Position numbers and translations under genes: made by a program. Shown one piece after another: positions 18,084 through 50,448 of a stretch of 64,000 nt of DNA. The notes below the pieces were generated by a model. The model ran no database searches. It was not told the origin of the DNA and saw only the letters and a program-made list of their open reading frames with translations. Numbering within the stretch: position 1 is the stretch's first letter; each line of letters begins with the position of its first letter. The stretch is from Nostoc sp. NMS7 (GTDB taxonomy: Bacteria; Cyanobacteriota; Cyanobacteriia; Cyanobacteriales; Nostocaceae), in the NCBI RefSeq assembly GCF_017115085.1, contig NZ_JABXKJ010000093.1, positions 1 to 64,000 of the forward strand, given 5' to 3'.

Positions 18084-18205
18084 CCGTTTTGGTAGACAGC
18101 AACGTTATCCTCGACATTCTTACCGAAAAAGTAAATTCATTCGATAATCAAATAGGCTATCACCTACCAGAACACAAAGCGCGATCGCTTTTCATTACCT
18201 TCTGA
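18080..18205 (+). pseudogene. Truncated VapC-type PIN toxin
   Basis: The frame starting in the antitoxin stop codon reads MTVLVDSNVILDILTEK, the exact opening of PIN-domain toxins with the first catalytic Asp (VDSN). After about 24 residues family similarity stops and the frame ends at 18205, 41 codons in all against about 130 in the family. The missing acidic residues mean no nuclease activity. The break coincides with the 3' end of the minus-strand STAND gene (18160), which the remnant overlaps, so a rearrangement here removed the rest of the toxin. Confidence 0.75.
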
Positions 18206-21200
18206 TTAGTCTGCAAATAATCGTGTAGTAAATCGCAACTCCGTGTCAGTAATTTTTCCAGTTGGATATCCGCCAAATTCTGTAAAATCACCGTACCGTT
18301 AGCACTACCCGCAGCCAAAGTTTTACCGTCATGGCTGAAACTGACGCTGGTTAACTCATCCTTGTAACCTTTCAAAGCAATCAGCAATGTCCCTTCTCGG
18401 TTCCAAATCCTCACTTTGTCATCACTGGAGGCTGCTAGAGTCTTACCATCGGGGCTAAAGCTGACACTGATAAAACTATCGCCATCGCCAGCGAGATTAT
18501 TTAGCAAATCACCGTCTCGACTCCAAATCTTCACTGTGCTATCAATACTAACTGAAGCGATCGCCTGACTATCAGGCGACCAAGCAACCCCATTTACTCG
18601 GCGGCTATGACCAGTTAAGGTATATAGTAATTTACCATCTACACTCCAGATTTTCACGGTTTTGTCATCACTGGCTGAGGCTAGCAATTTACCATCAGGG
18701 CTAAAGCTTACCCAATTCACCGCGTCTTGATGTCCCTGCAAGGTATTAAGCAGTTTACCGTCCCGACTCCAAAGTTTTACTGTTTTATCTTTACTAGCCG
18801 AGGCAATTACTTTCCCATCAGGCGACCAAGCAACACCTAAGACGGCACCATTATGACCTTGCAAGGTGTTGAGTAGTTTACCGTCGAGACTCCAAAGCTT
18901 CACCGTTTTATCTTTACTAGCCGAGGCGATCGCTTGACCATCGGGGCTAAAACTCACGCCCCAAACTTGACCCTGATGCCCCGTGAAAATACGGATTAGT
19001 TTACCGTCTCGACTGAAAAGTTTTATAGTTTTGTCTCGACTCGCTGCTGCTAAGGTGCGATCGCCTGGGCTAAAACTGATGCTAGTTACCCAGTCATCAT
19101 TATCAGCTTTCGGCTTTCGCAATAACACATCATCCCAATACCAGAGTTTAATAGTTTTATCCCGACTTGCAGAAGCAAGGGTGCGACCGTCTGGGCTGAA
19201 ACTGACGCTATTCACCCAATTATTATGTCCCTTCAGGGTTCCCAGCAGCACACCTTCAAAACTCCAAAGTTTAATTGTCTCATCGGTACTTGCAGAAGCG
19301 ATCGTGTTACCATCAGGGCTAAAACTGACGCTGGTAACTCCAGCACTATGCCCCGATAAGGTTCGCAGTAGTTTACCTTCCAGATTCCATAGTTTGATTG
19401 TCTGGTCTAAACTAGCAGAAGCGATCGCTTGACCATCAGGCGACCAAGCTATACTTTTGACTGCATCATCATGTCCTTGGAAGGTTTTGAGCAGTTTACC
19501 ATCCCGACTCCACAATTTCACCGTCTTGTCAGCACTCCCGGAAGCAATAGTTTGACCATTGGGCGACCAAGCGACACTTAAGACTGCACCATCATGTCCC
19601 TGCAAAGTTTTGATCAGCTTGTTATCCCGACTCCAAAGTTTTATTGTCTTGTCTGAACTCGCCGAAGCAATAATTTGACCATCTGGGCTGAAACTAACAC
19701 TATTTACCACAGCTTGATGCCCTAATAGAGTAGCAAGCAGTTGACCGTCCCGATTCCACAGTTTTACTGTCTTGTCTTGACTGGCGGAAGCAATGATTTG
19801 ACTATCAGGACTAAAACTGACGCTATTAACTACATCATCATGTCCCGACAAGGTTTTAACCAAGCTACCATCGGGACGCCAGAGTTTAATTGTATTATCC
19901 GCACTGGCTGAAGCAATTAAAGTGCGATCGCGGCTAAATGTAACACTATTTACCCCAGAGATATGCCCTTCTAAGCGGTTATATTCTCTGACGCTGGAAA
20001 CTGCTTGATAAAGTGCTGTTTGTACTTCCTCTCTTGTATTGGAATCTACCCAGACTGTTTGTTGCAATTTTCTTCCTGCTTTTAAAGCTTCCTTTAAAGC
20101 ATCAATACCTTTTTGGGAAGCAAAAAGGGCTTCACTGGATGCACTCAGGGTTTTAATTTCGCTATCTACTGCTGTGACTATGGAAACACTTAATCCTAAT
20201 ATGGCGAGAACACAAGCAGTTAGTGCCATTTTCAACGAACGATTTAATTGAGCTTCACTAATCCTTTGTTTCTTTTGGCTTTCTGCGAGTTTAGCTGTTA
20301 ACTCTTTTTCTTTAAGTTCAGCTCGCAAATGCTCAATTTCTAACTGACTCAATTCTTCCCGTTTGTGTAACTCTCGCAATTCTGTTAATAAGTCCAAACC
20401 CGGTTGGGGATGAGAATCTACCAATTTAGAACGCTGTTTATTTTGACTAAGTTCGCTTTTAAGTCGTTCAATCTCAGCTTGACTCTGTTCTACTTTTTGG
20501 CGTAGCTGGTTCAGTTGTACCTGTAAGCTCGATTCTTGTTGTTGCAGGTAGCGAATCAACGATACTAAATAATCGTGAATCAGTTGATAGCGTTCTGGTA
20601 CATCAGGGAATAGTACCACTAAACCGGAACGCACTAAAATTTCTAATACTAAGTCTAATTTCTCAGCATCTTCTAACTCTGCTAGCTGCACCGCTAATTC
20701 AGCACGAGTTTTAAAAGGTCGGTTGTTACTTTCATCTGTTAATAAATATAAGACGAGTAACGCGGCTCGTTCATTCTCTGGGCCGCAGTCTTTAATCAGT
20801 TCCTTAATATATCGCTCAATGAGTTTATTCGGTCTATATGGCTGATATTCTTCTAGTGTAGTAATGCGCTCATCTTGAATTTGCGCTCCCACAACTTGTA
20901 ATTCAATCGGGCGGACTTCTCCAAATTCTGTTGATAAATCTTCGATTAAGGCATCAATTAAAGCCGATTCTAAATTGAACTGCGATCGCTCTGTTAATTT
21001 TCGGATAATTGCTTTCGCATATTCTGGCGTAAAGTTATTTAACTGGTAGCGAATATGCTTGTCGAGAATATTATGATTAATCGCTTCCAGTGCGGAAAGA
21101 TGTTTAAAATCTAATAAACGATGTAAATAATCTTCTCGCAAGGAAAGGATAACTTTCACAAAGGGGATTTTGAGACAGTCACTAATAAATTTATCAAACT

Positions 21201-23283
21201 CTTGCTTTTGATTGCGATCGCTATAACCAAAGAAAAATTCTTCAAACTGGTCAAAAATTAAAACTGTGATCAAATGCTGATCAGCATTTTCCTTTAGTTG
21301 CTGTAAAATTCTCAAGATCGTCATCGGTTGGGCATAGTAAGCTAAAGCTTCCGCTTCAATAGCTACTTCTGGCTTCATATCAGCATACACGGCAAGGGAT
21401 GCGTCACTAGACATCGCCTCACTTAGAGATTTTCCTAATTCTCGCGCCCAATCGGTGTAAACTTGCAATACCACAGGCACGGCTATTTGATCGCCAACGG
21501 CTCGATTTTGCAATGCTGGAACTAAACCCGCCGTGACAGTCGAACTCTTACCCACCCCTGATTGACCGTGAATTACCGTCAGCTTTTGATCAGCACGGCT
21601 GATTCTGCCAATTAAGTTATTAATATCACGCTCCCGACCAGAAGCGGCAATTTCTAAAGCAACGCTACTACTCCCAGAAGGTGACATTAATGCTGGATTT
21701 GTCGCCTGTCTTTGCGGTTGCAAGCGTCCTGCACCGATAAAAGCCCGAAAACCGTACTGTTGCTCAACAGAACGCCGTTTCTGTCGAATATAATAGGCTT
21801 CCAGATAGCGCCCTTCTTCAAAGTAGAGCGATCGCAGTCTCCGCAATAAGCGAATATAACGATGGGCATCGTATTGATGAGCGCTGCTTTCTAAGGCTGC
21901 TGGTAGTTCTTTTGTCGCCTTATCCAGGTATTCACGCGCTATTTTTAACTCACCTAAATTTCGCTGGGCTTTCGCCAAAATTAAATAGTAAATTTGCCCC
22001 AATAATAATGGAAATAAGCAGTTGTAAGGGTCGTTGTGCTTTTGCGCCTCACCTAATTTCAGCAGTGATACGTGTGCTAATATACTCGCCTGTACCCAGC
22101 GCGACTGCTGTACAGCCACTTGCGCCAGAAAACCGTAGTCACAAGCTAATTCAATTTGACTACCATAAGTTTGATGTAACTCCAGAGACTTTTGAGCAAC
22201 CGTCTGCAACTCTTCCCACTCTTGCAGATATTGCAAAACTTCAGCGAGTTGATTGATAAATCCAGCAACTATATCTAAACGTCCAGCCACTTGTAAAACA
22301 TTTAAGCATTGCTGAAAATAAGATTTAGCTGTGTACCAATGACGGCGGTTTTCGGTTTGATTTTGCTCTGCAAAACGGCAATAACACAGCCCAATATAAA
22401 ACAGTAAAATTCCCTGTCGTAAAAGTAGAGGAGATGGCCGATTAGGAGGCATAGGCAAAGAAAATACCCCCTCATCCCCCTCATCCCCCTCATCCCTTCC
22501 TTTTGCCAACTTTTGCCAAACTTCCAAGCTTTGCTGAAAATGCTTTAAAGCTGGATGAATGCGATCGCTAATATAATCATCTAGACCAAAAACAAATTCT
22601 AAACTAGCCTCTAATTCTGACTCTAAGGTAATACCACGATTGTGTAACTCTTTAATGGCAAAGTGGAGTTCATAGCTATGTTTCCAGACTTGCTCCACAG
22701 TAGAATAATGCTTTGCAACTTCAGGACGTTGGTGTTGTGCAGCATCGTTTGGTAACACCGTAGCAAATAAAGAGTCAGTTTCCTGTTGCAGAAATTGCAG
22801 CAATGCCTCAGTTGTCATTTCAAACTTAATCGGTGTCGCCGCCCAACTAGCAAAATCTGGTGCTAAACGCGCTACCTTTTGCAACACTTCCTCATTCACC
22901 CAGACAATCATCGGAAACGGATGACGTTTGCGAAATTCATCACGAATATGATTGATAGACCTCAGTAAATCATCAAGTCCATCTACTGACTCTAAACCCA
23001 AAATCATCAACGCCGATGGCAGATTCTTTTCAGTTAGCAGTTGTAAATGAATACTTGTGTAAAGACTTCTGGCATTATGCGGCAAAACTACCTTTTGAAT
23101 CTGATGTACTCCTGAAGAGAGTTCATCGAGTTGTTGCAGCATTTGCTCTTGCAAAACTCGATAATTGCAGCACACCAAAACCAGAGAGAATTGACCGTTA
23201 GAAAGGGCAATTGCTCTCCCCAAATTCCGTATAGCACGCTCGTTAGCTGCTGTTACATCTGCTTGTGGGTGTCGTTCAACCAT
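18160..23283 (-). CDS. Giant STAND ATPase with TPR region, membrane helix and 14 WD40 repeats
   Basis: 1707 aa. Order: residues about 1-170, an ATPase-like domain lacking a P-loop (FSLVLVCCNYRVLQEQMLQQ, ALMILGLESVDGLDDLL, FPMIVWVNEEVLQ); about 190-520, helical TPR-like repeats; about 560-900, a STAND ATPase with Walker A VIHGQSGVGKSSTV and Walker B TVLIFDQFEEFFFG; about 915-1020, a coiled coil (QLRQKVEQSQAEIERLKSEL); about 1027-1045, one hydrophobic helix (ALTACVLAILGLSVSIV); about 1095-1690, fourteen WD40 repeats, enough for two seven-blade propellers. STAND proteins act as switches that assemble after sensing a ligand, here probably through the propellers. The gene overlaps the AAA gene upstream by 31 bases. 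A DEGDEGDEG run near residue 268 comes from a spacer-type repeat. Confidence 0.92.
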   Translation of the reverse strand: MVERHPQADVTAANERAIRNLGRAIALSNGQFSLVLVCCNYRVLQEQMLQQLDELSSGVHQIQKVVLPHNARSLYTSIHLQLLTEKNLPSALMILGLESVDGLDDLLRSINHIRDEFRKRHPFPMIVWVNEEVLQKVARLAPDFASWAATPIKFEMTTEALLQFLQQETDSLFATVLPNDAAQHQRPEVAKHYSTVEQVWKHSYELHFAIKELHNRGITLESELEASLEFVFGLDDYISDRIHPALKHFQQSLEVWQKLAKGRDEGDEGDEGVFSLPMPPNRPSPLLLRQGILLFYIGLCYCRFAEQNQTENRRHWYTAKSYFQQCLNVLQVAGRLDIVAGFINQLAEVLQYLQEWEELQTVAQKSLELHQTYGSQIELACDYGFLAQVAVQQSRWVQASILAHVSLLKLGEAQKHNDPYNCLFPLLLGQIYYLILAKAQRNLGELKIAREYLDKATKELPAALESSAHQYDAHRYIRLLRRLRSLYFEEGRYLEAYYIRQKRRSVEQQYGFRAFIGAGRLQPQRQATNPALMSPSGSSSVALEIAASGRERDINNLIGRISRADQKLTVIHGQSGVGKSSTVTAGLVPALQNRAVGDQIAVPVVLQVYTDWARELGKSLSEAMSSDASLAVYADMKPEVAIEAEALAYYAQPMTILRILQQLKENADQHLITVLIFDQFEEFFFGYSDRNQKQEFDKFISDCLKIPFVKVILSLREDYLHRLLDFKHLSALEAINHNILDKHIRYQLNNFTPEYAKAIIRKLTERSQFNLESALIDALIEDLSTEFGEVRPIELQVVGAQIQDERITTLEEYQPYRPNKLIERYIKELIKDCGPENERAALLVLYLLTDESNNRPFKTRAELAVQLAELEDAEKLDLVLEILVRSGLVVLFPDVPERYQLIHDYLVSLIRYLQQQESSLQVQLNQLRQKVEQSQAEIERLKSELSQNKQRSKLVDSHPQPGLDLLTELRELHKREELSQLEIEHLRAELKEKELTAKLAESQKKQRISEAQLNRSLKMALTACVLAILGLSVSIVTAVDSEIKTLSASSEALFASQKGIDALKEALKAGRKLQQTVWVDSNTREEVQTALYQAVSSVREYNRLEGHISGVNSVTFSRDRTLIASASADNTIKLWRPDGSLVKTLSGHDDVVNSVSFSPDSQIIASASQDKTVKLWNRDGQLLATLLGHQAVVNSVSFSPDGQIIASASSDKTIKLWSRDNKLIKTLQGHDGAVLSVAWSPNGQTIASGSADKTVKLWSRDGKLLKTFQGHDDAVKSIAWSPDGQAIASASLDQTIKLWNLEGKLLRTLSGHSAGVTSVSFSPDGNTIASASTDETIKLWSFEGVLLGTLKGHNNWVNSVSFSPDGRTLASASRDKTIKLWYWDDVLLRKPKADNDDWVTSISFSPGDRTLAAASRDKTIKLFSRDGKLIRIFTGHQGQVWGVSFSPDGQAIASASKDKTVKLWSLDGKLLNTLQGHNGAVLGVAWSPDGKVIASASKDKTVKLWSRDGKLLNTLQGHQDAVNWVSFSPDGKLLASASDDKTVKIWSVDGKLLYTLTGHSRRVNGVAWSPDSQAIASVSIDSTVKIWSRDGDLLNNLAGDGDSFISVSFSPDGKTLAASSDDKVRIWNREGTLLIALKGYKDELTSVSFSHDGKTLAAGSANGTVILQNLADIQLEKLLTRSCDLLHDYLQTNQKVMKSDRALCSGR

Positions 23284-44602: not shown

Positions 44603-46276
44603 CTAATCTTGAGTCTTTTGTTGATAAATTTGCGGTGCAAGAATAACTTGAATTTGCTTTTCCTGGCATTTTTGAGAAAAAGCGCGAATTTGAGCTTCCT
44701 TATCTCCCTGAATTGATAAAGATTTTAAAAATCCCTGAAATCCTAAAAAAGCTAATTCGTAGATAGCTTTTTGACTAAAACCACCTTCAAAATAGCCTGT
44801 GTGGGTATCAACACCTTGAGGATCTCTATTGTTAATAGACTTCCGAATAAATGCCAAAGTTAGTAAAATATAATTCCCAAAATCTATCGCTGGCTGTTGG
44901 AGGGCAGAACTAACAACTCCTATCTGAAGACTTCGATCATCTTTATAATCTGTACAGTCAAAATATGTAAATAAATCTGCGGGTTGAACCTCATTTTCGG
45001 AAATTTCAGTTATCTCTTCAAGTCTTCTATGTTCGCTACTAGAAGAACGAATTTCTAAATAGTTATAAGGTTTATCAAGTGTGTAATCTTTCTCATAGTA
45101 TTGTTTCTGAAAATTCACAACTCCATATCTGGGTGTCTGACCAACTTTATCATTTTTGTTGTTGAAATGCTTAACTGTGATATTACCAAGCCTGTAGCCA
45201 CTTATACGAGTTCGCGCAGGGAAACTAAAGTAATTTGCAGCAGTGGAGGTAATTCGTAACGCTAAGTCTCCCTCATTACAAAAGATATAAGCTTCTTCAC
45301 ACCGACGTAAAGAAGAACGAAGAAAATTAGCTCGTCCTGGCAAGATGGTTTCTACAGGAATATCAGGTGCAACTAGCACAAGTCTGCCTAAGCGAAATAC
45401 ATTGCCAATATCTGAATTAGGTTCTTTATTAATAGATTTAACGTCAAAAACATCAGAGAGGATACGAATTACATCTGTAACTACAAAACACCCCATACTA
45501 TGACTAATAAATGACAATTTAATGCGTTTATTAGGGGGTAACTTTACTGTAACATCAAGCTGTCTGATCAATTCAACTAAGTCTGTTACACCATAATTAA
45601 CCGCTCTATAAGTATCACGAAAATAAGTAGATATTCTGAGAATAATTAATGTCAAAATAATTGAAGATACAATGCCAGATAAAATTAACAACACGGTGAA
45701 AAAGTGGACAGCGCTATTACTCAAAATATTTAGGAACAACAAAACTATGGTAGACCATATACTAATTGTCAGTCCCACAACTAAATTGATAGCTAGTAAA
45801 GTTGGTAGAGAATATAGGGCGTTCATTAGCTTTTGCCCAAAGGAACCAGATTCATCTGTTTTTATAGGATTTTCAGAAGGCCATCTATATCCTATAAAAA
45901 TATACTTATTTGGTTGCTGAATATGTGTATTGACATATTCATAAATCTTTTTGCAGCCTGTCTCTGTATCCGATGGTGTCGAACTATATCCATGAATGTT
46001 TATAATAATTTCTGGTTCTGGGCTTGATTGTAAGCTTTCAGCAATTTTCTCAAGCATCTCTTGGGCTGAAGGTTCAGCTTGTCCATCATTAATATTAAAA
46101 AAGTTTTGATTAATAACTTTTGATAAATAGTTGTTAGATTCTTCTGTCTCAACATTGAGTTTTGCAGTACTAACTACTAAATAACCAGATATTTTTTCTT
46201 GGTTGTTTTTCTTAAATTCATAAATTTTATACGGTTCATTATCTGCCAGATTCTTCTTATCAGGAGAGTTCGTCAT
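44603..46276 (-). CDS. Membrane-anchored alpha/beta hydrolase
   Basis: 557 aa from the ATG at 46276 (the track start is a TTG six codons earlier). About 95-130 holds the first hydrolase strand (PEIIINIHGYSSTPSDTETG) and about 265-280 the nucleophile elbow KLSFISHSMGCFVVTDVIRI (Ser in SHSMG), with an acid in VLVAPDIPVETILPG. Between them lie two hydrophobic helices (LLAINLVVGLTISIWSTIVL and HFFTVLLILSGIVSSIILTL), which would anchor the enzyme in a membrane. The C-terminal part (about 430-550) is of unknown type. This arrangement resembles DUF900/esterase-like proteins. As last gene of the lipoxygenase-P450 cluster it may release fatty acids from lipids; that is inference from context. Confidence 0.72.
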   Translation of the reverse strand: MTNSPDKKNLADNEPYKIYEFKKNNQEKISGYLVVSTAKLNVETEESNNYLSKVINQNFFNINDGQAEPSAQEMLEKIAESLQSSPEPEIIINIHGYSSTPSDTETGCKKIYEYVNTHIQQPNKYIFIGYRWPSENPIKTDESGSFGQKLMNALYSLPTLLAINLVVGLTISIWSTIVLLFLNILSNSAVHFFTVLLILSGIVSSIILTLIILRISTYFRDTYRAVNYGVTDLVELIRQLDVTVKLPPNKRIKLSFISHSMGCFVVTDVIRILSDVFDVKSINKEPNSDIGNVFRLGRLVLVAPDIPVETILPGRANFLRSSLRRCEEAYIFCNEGDLALRITSTAANYFSFPARTRISGYRLGNITVKHFNNKNDKVGQTPRYGVVNFQKQYYEKDYTLDKPYNYLEIRSSSSEHRRLEEITEISENEVQPADLFTYFDCTDYKDDRSLQIGVVSSALQQPAIDFGNYILLTLAFIRKSINNRDPQGVDTHTGYFEGGFSQKAIYELAFLGFQGFLKSLSIQGDKEAQIRAFSQKCQEKQIQVILAPQIYQQKTQD

Positions 46277-46416
46277 GTCTATTTTTCTTGACAACTTAGG
46301 TTAAGTATATCGCTTAGGGACTGCATCTGCTCACATTCCGAAGGTAAGGAATCAACGGATTTTATGAGACAATAAGCTAATTTAGATATCACTATCGGGA
46401 TTACTACTGCATTTTT

Positions 46417-47095: not shown

Positions 47096-48445
47096 TCACA
47101 ATCGTTGAGCAAAACCTTGTAACACTAAACTATTAGGAGTAACGGCAGTCACTTTTTCAAAATCCCACTTGACTTCTGTAATTGAGTCCCATTGATAGTT
47201 ATTGAACAGATGTAAACAGAAAATCTTGATAAAGCCAATTGATAAGGATTTACCAGGACAGGCTCGCTCATGCCCTTCACCGTTCCAAGATAAGATATCG
47301 GAAAAATTTCGTGTTACGTCAAAATTATCTGGATTTTGGTATCTATTGGTATCCCGATTAGCTGTAAAAATAGAGCCAAGCAAGCGAGTACCTTTTTGGA
47401 ATGGACATTTTTGTTCTGCAATCTCAACTTCACCCGCTTCAGTGGTGAGTTGGCTAACAAATCGCACAGGTGGATAGAGACGAGCCGTTTCCAGAATCAC
47501 TTGATTGAGAAGTGTTGACTGTTCTAGAGCGTCTGAGTCTAAACTTTCCTTGCCATTCCAAACTGCATTGACTTCTGATACTACATTATTTCTGAGGGCA
47601 TTATCCAAGCATAAAACACCAATAACAGATCCCAAAAGCCCACTCGTACCAGCAGTACCGGCAAGATGAATCATATCGAAAAGGCTATTAGCGATTTGGT
47701 GTTCGTTCAACTGATACTGAGCGCCTGTTTCAAAGTAAGATGCCCATTTAGTAGATTGTTGATATCGCTTGGTTAAATATTGACGATGGTGAATTTTTGG
47801 CGCTGTTAATATTGCCAGCAGATACTTGCTAATAAAATTTGGTAATGATGCCAGAGGCATACCTTTAATGTAATTACTTGATGCTGTGATTTCTTCCTCA
47901 GATAAAGATATCTGAAAAACCAGTTGGTGCAAAATCGACAGCATGATCTTTGGCAAATCGTTGCCGATGTGTAATTTACCCTGTCTAGCAGCCTCTAACA
48001 GGCTTTGCTCAACTAGATAGCTTAAAAAGTCTATCTGCTCTGACGGTTCTGGTAAGGCTTGTAAGAACACAGTACGGAGTCCTGTGTGTTCGTTACCGTT
48101 CGTCCCCAAGCTCAGAGGATTATCGAGTAGGTAACTAGGAGCTAATATTCTGATGATGCCTAAATCATTTCCCCGCAGTTGTGGTTGGGTTTGCATTAGT
48201 TCCCTCACCTGGGCGTGAGAGGAATGCATAATTGCTTGGTCTACTGCAAAATACTTGTCGCCAATATTGTCCTTACGGATGTAGAGAAAGTCCCGCCATG
48301 CGTTGAGCATGATTAATGCATCCATGTAATAGAAAATCAAGCGTAGAAACTTACCGATCGCAGTGTCATAACCTACTTTGGCTAGTATAGGTGCAAGCCA
48401 GAGCTGGCGATCGTGACCTTTGAGAACTTTATCTTTAAGTGTCAT
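47096..48445 (-). CDS. Cytochrome P450 with an atypical I-helix (candidate hydroperoxide-processing P450)
   Basis: 449 aa, soluble. P450 landmarks: the C-helix-like NEHTGLRTVF (about 120), the I-helix MIHLAGTAGTSGLLGSV (about 259-275), the K-helix ExxR in ILETARLYPPVRF (about 317), and the heme loop GHERACPGKSLSIGF with the Cys ligand at about 399. The I-helix normally reads (A/G)Gx(D/E)T(T/S) and delivers protons for O2 activation. Here it reads AGTAGT, so both the acid and the first Thr are gone. P450s that act on ready-made hydroperoxides (allene oxide synthase, hydroperoxide lyase; CYP74-type and relatives) also lack this pair. A lipoxygenase gene lies directly upstream, which fits. Exact reaction unknown. 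Confidence 0.85.
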   Translation of the reverse strand: MTLKDKVLKGHDRQLWLAPILAKVGYDTAIGKFLRLIFYYMDALIMLNAWRDFLYIRKDNIGDKYFAVDQAIMHSSHAQVRELMQTQPQLRGNDLGIIRILAPSYLLDNPLSLGTNGNEHTGLRTVFLQALPEPSEQIDFLSYLVEQSLLEAARQGKLHIGNDLPKIMLSILHQLVFQISLSEEEITASSNYIKGMPLASLPNFISKYLLAILTAPKIHHRQYLTKRYQQSTKWASYFETGAQYQLNEHQIANSLFDMIHLAGTAGTSGLLGSVIGVLCLDNALRNNVVSEVNAVWNGKESLDSDALEQSTLLNQVILETARLYPPVRFVSQLTTEAGEVEIAEQKCPFQKGTRLLGSIFTANRDTNRYQNPDNFDVTRNFSDILSWNGEGHERACPGKSLSIGFIKIFCLHLFNNYQWDSITEVKWDFEKVTAVTPNSLVLQGFAQRL

Positions 48446-48555: not shown

Positions 48556-50448
48556 TTAGATATTGATGCTCTGAGGAATTTTAGAAGGAAGCAGATACTC
48601 ATAAGTTGGACGGTGCAAATTACGTTGCTTAATAGTATTTTCCACCTGCTGAAGATTACTCTGGAATGCATGTAAGAATGGTTTTACTTTCTGGTCTATA
48701 AAGTATCCTTGCTGATATTCGCCCAGCTTGTTGTAGTATACAGACCCTAACAAGCTGAGTATGTTGTATTGCCGTTGCGCCTGATCTAAAGGGGGGAGCA
48801 AATTGAGGTAGTCTTGCTCAGTAACTTCTCTTTTGAGAGTTGAGGCTGGTAAATAACCTGCCGTTGGTATGGCTGCGGCATAACTCATCAAATCTTTTTG
48901 GGGAAAGTTAACGGCTGCGTGTTGAGCGCTGGCAGTGAAAATAATCAGTGTAGTGGCATCAATTAGGTAATTGAACGTTTTGATACTCCCATCTTCGCCA
49001 AAATCGCGGATGCGACCACCATCATAAGCTGAGATTTCGGCTGCCCAAGCTTGCAGGGCTGTGTCTTGCTGAATGTCTTCATCTGTGATGTAATAAAGGT
49101 TCAGGTAGTCTGAAACCCATTTAGTAATGGCATCCCAGACTAATAGTGCATCATCGCGGTAAGGATAAATAGGCAATAGGTTGGGATCATCCACACCGCG
49201 CTGTTGGAATTGCTTGGGTAAGATGGCACTATTGAAACCATAGCTTTGTAACCCAAGCACTGCGAAAACGCGAGCGTTATCGATTGATGCTGAGAGTAAT
49301 CTATCGACGCCACCGCCTGGAGCAATGAGAATCCGTTGGGCGGCATCGTTAATTGCTAAGGTGCTGTCAAAATGCGGGTGCAGCAGAATTCTTAGAGGAT
49401 GGGTAAGCGGCAGTTGTCGATAGGTGGCGATCGCAAAAGCACCAACAAACAGGTGAGTTCTTCCTAAATGAGTAATCGCTTCGTGGAAGTTGGCATCTGC
49501 TATTTGGACAATTGTTTTGGCAAATAGCCAAGGGTATTTACCGGAGTTAGGGGTAATGATGGGATAATCTGATCCTGGGGTTTGACCGCATTGAATGGCG
49601 ATCGCCCGCAATAGACGGGTGGAGTCTGAGCCTTTGGGTAAGGCAAACAGTGCTAGGGGAGCATAGACATATTTTTGCTCATTCGGGTATGTACCGTTGA
49701 TCGCACCGTCTAACATTTTATAGTCAGCTAAGTAGAGCCTTCCTTCAAGTCCTGCTGCTGCTAATGAATCGTCATTTCCCATCACTGCTTGGTAATGTTC
49801 GTCTGTGACTGGGAAGCGATCGCCTGGAGTGGTTACTCGCTCGATCATCACGGGATTGTAGCCAGCTACTCGCATGTAGGCAAATACTTCATCTTCGTGG
49901 TAAGTTTTGGCGATCGCTGGTACACCAATCACCGGAAACAAATTTTCGTAGTCCTTGAGACTGGTTGCGTGTCCTGTGGGCTGTCCTTCATATAGAAGGG
50001 TAATTACCCGATTTAGAGTATCTCTAAGGATCACAAGTCCGTTTTCTTTAAGAATATGAAAGAAAAGATCGTCGAGTTCTCTAACATCCTTGGATATCGC
50101 TTTAAGTAAAAACTGGGGGATAATTTGCAGGATTCTCGCCAGAATACTGATTCGGACTGGGATTGCTCCCTTGAGCAAGGCTTCTAAAATAAACTTTTCG
50201 ACATCATCACGAATCGATTTAGAACCCTGATTGCCTCGGTTGACGATCAGGGTATTAATAAAAATAACTCGTAACTGCTGGGCTAATAAAAAATACCAGT
50301 TAGTGGCGAACTCTTCCGCAAGAGAAAGCTGATCCACCATAGCAATAGATGGAATATGAGTGTAGTTATATTGATACTCTTGCCTAGCTATATCTAGAGT
50401 ATGAGTGCTTGAGGAACTGATCAAATTATCTGGTAATGAAGCAGTCAT
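48556..50448 (-). CDS. Lipoxygenase
   Basis: Non-heme iron dioxygenase that adds O2 to polyunsaturated fatty acids to give hydroperoxides. 630 aa, the catalytic domain only, without an N-terminal PLAT domain, as usual in bacteria. Iron ligands are visible: H-x4-H in EAITHLGRTHLFV (about 330), the third His and the Asn in SAQHAAVNFPQ (about 508-512), and the C-terminal Ile of the final QSINI. Other family marks are PLTHPLRILLHPHFDSTLAI and ILPKQFQQRGV. No fusion with a catalase-like allene oxide synthase is present, unlike in some Nostoc strains. First gene of a minus-strand cluster with P450, unknown and hydrolase genes. Confidence 0.95.
   Translation of the reverse strand: MTASLPDNLISSSSTHTLDIARQEYQYNYTHIPSIAMVDQLSLAEEFATNWYFLLAQQLRVIFINTLIVNRGNQGSKSIRDDVEKFILEALLKGAIPVRISILARILQIIPQFLLKAISKDVRELDDLFFHILKENGLVILRDTLNRVITLLYEGQPTGHATSLKDYENLFPVIGVPAIAKTYHEDEVFAYMRVAGYNPVMIERVTTPGDRFPVTDEHYQAVMGNDDSLAAAGLEGRLYLADYKMLDGAINGTYPNEQKYVYAPLALFALPKGSDSTRLLRAIAIQCGQTPGSDYPIITPNSGKYPWLFAKTIVQIADANFHEAITHLGRTHLFVGAFAIATYRQLPLTHPLRILLHPHFDSTLAINDAAQRILIAPGGGVDRLLSASIDNARVFAVLGLQSYGFNSAILPKQFQQRGVDDPNLLPIYPYRDDALLVWDAITKWVSDYLNLYYITDEDIQQDTALQAWAAEISAYDGGRIRDFGEDGSIKTFNYLIDATTLIIFTASAQHAAVNFPQKDLMSYAAAIPTAGYLPASTLKREVTEQDYLNLLPPLDQAQRQYNILSLLGSVYYNKLGEYQQGYFIDQKVKPFLHAFQSNLQQVENTIKQRNLHRPTYEYLLPSKIPQSINI

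Follow-up and report, generated by a model that had tools for sequence, protein, structure and literature searches.

Most descriptions of P450-type hydroperoxide metabolism come from plants, animals, fungi, algae and a few Proteobacteria. The CYP152 fatty-acid peroxygenases lack the acid-alcohol pair of the P450 I-helix and have a Cys-Pro-Gly heme loop; their Arg-Pro pair binds the carboxylate and directs H2O2. Prostacyclin synthase (CYP8A1) and thromboxane synthase (CYP5A1) are self-sufficient P450 isomerases that act on an endoperoxide, and prostacyclin synthase is also without the acid (Gly286) and the Thr (Asn287). The CYP74 clan, which includes the plant allene oxide synthases, hydroperoxide lyases, divinyl ether synthases and epoxyalcohol synthases as well as the metazoan CYP440 and CYP443 enzymes, combines a P450 fold with loss of the acid-alcohol pair, a PPV sequence after the ExxR motif and coupling to a lipoxygenase. 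Its I-helix carries an Asn at the Thr position (PMC8124189, PMC13049297), and its heme loop contains a nine-residue insertion (PMC10813956).

An Asn at this position is found both in plant allene oxide synthase and in the Gly-Asn motif of prostacyclin synthase, but Thr, Val or Ile takes its place in thromboxane synthase and in the 8R/9R and 8S/9S allene oxide synthases of fungi, and thus the Asn is not required (PMC13049297). In the fungal dioxygenase-P450 fusions (8R/9R-AOS, linoleate diol synthase and 10R-epoxyalcohol synthase), the P450 is joined to a COX-like heme dioxygenase dedicated to making the hydroperoxide that it rearranges; their I-helix motifs are NQxQ, TQxQ and TPxG, and the Asn is dispensable in the AOS members. 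Finally, the heme partners named in reviews for cyanobacteria are catalase-related proteins (PMC10813956, PMC13049297). These allene oxide synthases/hydroperoxide lyases, known from cyanobacteria (Acaryochloris marina and Nostoc punctiforme) and corals, also pair a heme enzyme with a fatty-acid dioxygenase, but have a catalase fold instead of the P450 fold of the protein described here.

The window that we analyzed, i.e. the whole 64,000-nucleotide stretch of Nostoc sp. NMS7 DNA, encodes a cytochrome P450 of 449 residues (449 codons) at positions 47096-48445. The gene is read from the minus strand, a point absent from the preliminary description of this DNA, and an open reading frame check showed its bounds to be exact from ATG to stop. 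The protein is a divergent member of the P450 superfamily, since its match to the Pfam p450 model (E = 2.8e-16) is limited to residues 244-426 and its best single-sequence match in the PDB reaches 4e-7. The top 50 Foldseek matches for its predicted structure are all P450s. The model has a mean pLDDT of 65, falling below 50 in the heme loop and also at residues 46-114, where SRS-1 with the position of the CYP74 F/L toggle lies; such low confidence precludes a reading of the active site.

The preliminary description had claimed that the proton-relay acid and the first Thr of the I-helix are replaced by Ala and Gly in the sequence AGTAGT (residues 262-267; 47645-47662, minus strand; within the segment IHLAGTAGTSG). 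To fix the register, we used ten P450 loci of the same genome, from which eight sequences were extracted, and aligned the family profiles by hhalign. Over 299 columns and at a probability of 98%, A262-G263-T264-A265-G266-T267-S268 falls on A-G-H-E-T-T-T of the ordinary P450s, which bears the claim out: Ala265 occupies the acid position and Gly266 that of the oxygen-binding Thr, while the second Thr (T267) is kept. The same register argues against the case that a different segment, with acid and Thr intact, forms the I-helix. We then compared 35 relatives of the P450, some of which share a genome and whose overall identity goes down to 63%. All 35 have an identical H[IL]AGTAGT, His260 is invariant among them, and the canonical (A/G)Gx(D/E)(T/S) was not found in the I-helix region of any; where an ordinary monooxygenase has (A/G)Gx(D/E)T, the Nostoc protein has AGTAG. 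Given this identity over such a range, together with purifying selection at a dN/dS of about 0.15-0.19 against close orthologs, the change is neither a chance event nor a sequencing error. A shifted register, in which G263-T264 would fall on Gly286-Asn287 of prostacyclin synthase, looked attractive at first sight, but alignment to the same-genome P450s and to a second P450 family (see below) gives AGTAGT over AGxETT. The shift would also place His260 over the heme, at what is normally an Ala position.

The remaining hallmarks of the superfamily are intact, as had been stated for the ExxR motif and the heme Cys: E319, R322, R379 (the PERF-type Arg) and the thiolate Cys396 are invariant among the relatives. 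The ExxR motif (E319-T-A-R322; 47480-47491, minus strand) lies in the segment ETARLYPPV and is followed by an equally invariant P325-P326-V327. In the heme loop (E393-R-A-C396-P-G-K within GHERACPGK; motif at 47249-47269, minus strand), H392, E393, R394, P397 and G398 are invariant in addition to the Cys. The usual Phe seven residues before the Cys is missing, and the PROSITE signature PS00086, which asks for Phe or Trp there, is found in none of 35 family members vs. 6 of 8 ordinary P450 sequences of the same genome. According to hhalign, the loop is only two residues longer than that of ordinary P450s. These data also bear on the idea that the protein is a decayed or non-catalytic P450 kept as a scaffold or for regulation. 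Pseudo-P450s do exist, e.g. the P450-derived activators of glycosyltransferases, which appear among the weak matches of our protein; the invariance of Cys396, ExxR and PPV, the low dN/dS and the inheritance of the gene together with an intact lipoxygenase nevertheless make this idea very improbable.

We compared the P450 with the CYP74, CYP8A1 and CYP152 enzymes at the level of motifs, as the preliminary description had proposed, and none of the three matched; the structure prediction that was to accompany the comparison confirmed the P450 fold and left the active site unreadable. Two of the less specific CYP74 traits are present, namely PPV and the ERR triad (E319, R322 and R379), the latter being common to P450s generally. 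On the other hand, the clan's I-helix Asn corresponds to G266 in all members of the Nostoc P450 family, and its nine-residue heme-loop insertion is missing. Membership in CYP74 was also tried by a profile search of the PDB and rejected: CYP74A2 ranks only sixth (E = 9e-6), over the C-terminal part only, and scores no better than ordinary P450s. Prostacyclin synthase differs by having Gly-Asn where the Nostoc P450 has Ala-Gly (A265-G266), its substrate is an endoperoxide whereas the predicted one here is a hydroperoxide, and we found no close sequence relation to either CYP8A1 or CYP5A1. The fungal fusions differ in their I-helix motifs and in gene arrangement, since the Nostoc P450 is encoded separately, beside a non-heme iron lipoxygenase. 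Judged by the absence of the catalytic Asn, the heme-loop insertion and the Arg-Pro pair, the P450 is not a member of CYP74, CYP8A1 or CYP152, but may well act like these enzymes, and its nearest description would be an uncharacterised bacterial P450 family with the anatomy of a hydroperoxide-metabolising enzyme. Gly266 would extend the series of Asn-less enzymes to one in which this position lacks a side chain altogether.

Loss of the acid-alcohol pair is shared with peroxygenases too, and the P450 might use a fatty-acid hydroperoxide or H2O2 as the oxidant for a second molecule, as CYP152 and plant peroxygenases do. CYP152 enzymes are among its weak sequence matches and have the Cys-Pro-Gly loop in common with it, but CYP74A, CYP51 and other ordinary P450 chains match it at least as well, and Ala-Gly stands where CYP152 has its Arg-Pro pair. 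A dedicated lipoxygenase next to the gene points, moreover, to the hydroperoxide as substrate. We thus consider a peroxygenase quite unlikely.

That a lipoxygenase lies next door proved correct. It is the first gene of what appears in many genomes as a three-gene set (see below), encodes 630 residues (48556-50448, minus strand; Pfam PF00305, E = 2.4e-58) and is located 110 bp upstream of the P450. Its iron ligands H327, H332, H510, N514 and the C-terminal I630 are invariant in 11 orthologs, and it aligns to bacterial 15-LOX structures with E values of 1e-138 to 1e-150. The Coffa-site position aligns as Ala370. Ala at this site usually predicts S stereochemistry, with known exceptions, and an S-configured product is suggested for the Nostoc enzyme.

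The third gene of the set, which the preliminary description did not include, starts 76 bp downstream of the P450 and encodes a small conserved protein of 200 residues that we call P0003 (46417-47019, minus strand). It has no match in Pfam (E up to 10), in NCBIfam or, by sequence, in the PDB. Its structural model is beta-rich with a pLDDT of 81, and Foldseek returns only weak nitrophorin/lipocalin-like matches (TM 0.35, rmsd about 9 A). Identification of P0003 as an allene oxide cyclase was considered and rejected on these search results. Its invariant polar residues are D36, N38, D42, D53, Q68, D97, N131, R137, N139 and R154, and it persists beside the P450 after loss of the lipoxygenase. The next co-directional gene (44603-46294, minus strand) encodes a DUF900 alpha/beta hydrolase (Pfam PF05990, 1.8e-10), which could be a lipase that frees the substrate for the lipoxygenase; five of 23 public loci have it (L010, L015, L017, L018 and L019), all from Nostoc or close relatives. 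We identified no redox-partner gene among the annotated neighbours of the P450. The same window also contains a 1707-residue open reading frame (18160-23283, minus strand).

In order to determine how closely these genes are linked, we scanned whole genomes for the P450 and obtained 23 public loci, hosted by Nostoc, Desmonostoc, Atlanticothrix, Calothrix, Iningainema, Leptothoe and another member of the Leptolyngbyaceae. In all 23, P0003 comes after the P450 and has the same orientation. One contig begins just upstream of the P450 and was left out of the lipoxygenase count; in 21 of the 22 testable loci, the lipoxygenase is immediately upstream, so that the order lipoxygenase-P450-P0003 and the strand are the same, with most gaps between tens and a few hundred bp. 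The sole real exception is L025, which has P450-P0003 without an adjoining lipoxygenase and two lipoxygenases elsewhere in the genome. A substitute dioxygenase was sought upstream of the P450 in L025, and the gene there encodes an aminoacyl-tRNA synthetase. An IS605-type OrfB/TnpB-like transposase gene (L025:3289-4497; Calothrix brevissima NIES-22) lies near the site of the lost lipoxygenase.

The linkage also holds in genome samples. Nine of 386 genomes sampled across the phylum have the P450, each with an adjoining lipoxygenase and P0003. Among 53 genomes of the window's genus, 22 have the P450, and 21 of these also encode an orthologous lipoxygenase (identity at least 73%) vs. 0 of the 31 P450-negative genomes; the single P450-positive genome without it is explained by a contig edge. 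Paralogous lipoxygenases (35-52% identity) are present regardless of the P450. P0003 is encoded in 22/22 P450-positive genomes of the genus, and a 57-residue remnant is found in one P450-negative genome. The corresponding Fisher tests give 7e-14 for the lipoxygenase and 5e-14 for P0003, p values that are indicative because the genomes are related. Lipoxygenase, P450 and P0003 are therefore one inherited module. In one strain (L020/G428), the P450 is interrupted by a stop codon and the lipoxygenase is truncated, which suggests that the pathway decays as a whole. Tandem P450 copies, about 67% and 63% identical to the Nostoc P450, are found between one lipoxygenase and one P0003 at another locus (L039/L041; G024:C45:30136-32908). 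A search of plasmids returned generic P450s only.

Five genomes of another family in the order carry P0003 homologs and no AGTAGT-type P450. In four of them, the P0003 homolog adjoins a different open reading frame of about 450 residues with the segments IAGLQGPLHLG, LLECARL and AGRICPGK. This second P450 family, with an AGLQGP I-helix and a RICPGK loop (L087:3451-4812, L104:2135-3499 and L090-L096), is usually missed by the Pfam p450 model (0.12 or no score), and its matches in the PDB are at chance level only. hhalign aligns it to the first family (97%, E = 3e-11) with AGTAGT over AGLQGP, i.e. the acid is replaced by Gln and the Thr by Gly. A third genus has members of this family as well: in three of its genomes (G245, G149 and G155), one lies 21 bp upstream of another lipoxygenase, which is 39% identical to that of the Nostoc module and has intact ligand motifs. 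The two P450 families are about 20% identical, and each is tied to the lipoxygenase, P0003 or both. Such a shared loss of the acid, with Gly at the Thr position and the same linkage, in families this divergent argues that the I-helix change and the link to a lipoxygenase belong together, keeping in mind that the two families are related and hence not fully independent evidence.

The second family is also relevant to the idea that the Nostoc P450 is a monooxygenase after all, hydroxylating or epoxidising the lipoxygenase product or its alcohol with O2 and electrons from cyanobacterial ferredoxin, and obtaining protons via substrate, water or another residue. Some P450s without the conserved Thr or acid still act as monooxygenases, which makes loss of the pair alone the weaker evidence for peroxide use. 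The second Thr and the invariant His260 are retained, reduced ferredoxin is abundant in cyanobacteria, and the P450 could draw on ferredoxins whose genes lie elsewhere in the genome. Against this, acid and Thr are both gone, and invariantly so; in a second family beside another lipoxygenase they have likewise been lost, with Gln rather than Ala replacing the acid; and the heme-loop Phe has disappeared along with the PROSITE signature. A monooxygenase is unlikely on this evidence.

We consider it likely that the P450 is instead a lipoxygenase-coupled hydroperoxide isomerase, lyase or allene oxide synthase that needs no redox partner. The peroxide-using, lipoxygenase-coupled enzyme foreseen in the preliminary description is thereby supported, mainly by strict co-inheritance with one lipoxygenase clade and by the second family. 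Its more specific prediction of an allene oxide synthase, hydroperoxide lyase or epoxyalcohol synthase is supported as far as the hydroperoxide-metabolising class; sequence does not separate these three, and a diol synthase would fit it equally well. Roughly, we would give about one third each to an allene oxide, an epoxyalcohol or diol, and a lyase product.

In the proposed pathway, the lipoxygenase would convert a polyunsaturated fatty acid and O2 to a hydroperoxide, as its family and intact ligands suggest. The ferric heme of the P450 would then bind the hydroperoxide and, needing neither O2 nor NAD(P)H nor a reductase, split its O-O bond, as CYP5A1, CYP8A1, CYP74 and the fungal fusions do; a radical or Compound I/II intermediate would rearrange to the allene oxide, epoxyalcohol, diol or, in the lyase case, hemiacetal. 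We propose that the I-helix has neither proton-relay acid nor Thr because none would be needed, and that Gly266 may provide space for the hydroperoxide group. It should be noted that the P450 has no counterpart of the Asn by which CYP74 and CYP8A1 position the hydroperoxide; the mechanism of O-O cleavage would thus not be the textbook one. More speculatively, P0003 may bind or convert the P450 product. The three-gene set probably makes plant-like oxylipins from fatty-acid hydroperoxides, without a supply of O2 or electrons for that conversion. A much bolder and rather doubtful extension is a complete prokaryotic octadecanoid line of an origin independent of CYP74, in which P0003, a novel lipocalin-like protein, would act after the lipoxygenase and an Asn-less allene-oxide-synthase-type P450 and either cyclise or carry the unstable product. 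The end products would be cyclopentenones resembling jasmonates, or related signals, in cyanobacteria that include plant and lichen symbionts.

We found no published report of a P450-lipoxygenase pair of this kind in the literature searched, which lay largely outside subscription journals, and the words lipoxygenase, hydroperoxide and peroxygenase do not appear in the text of a survey on the P450s of cyanobacteria (PMC7014017). If our reading is true, cyanobacteria have a lipoxygenase-tied P450 lineage whose active site is unlike that of CYP74, which would represent a second origin of this chemistry and would test which residues O-O bond cleavage really needs. P0003 is a concrete candidate for a new family of oxylipin-processing proteins. 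An ancient origin of the plant enzymes has been suggested, as many of them sit in chloroplasts (PMC10813956), and a cyanobacterial P450 lineage of this type would bear on that suggestion.
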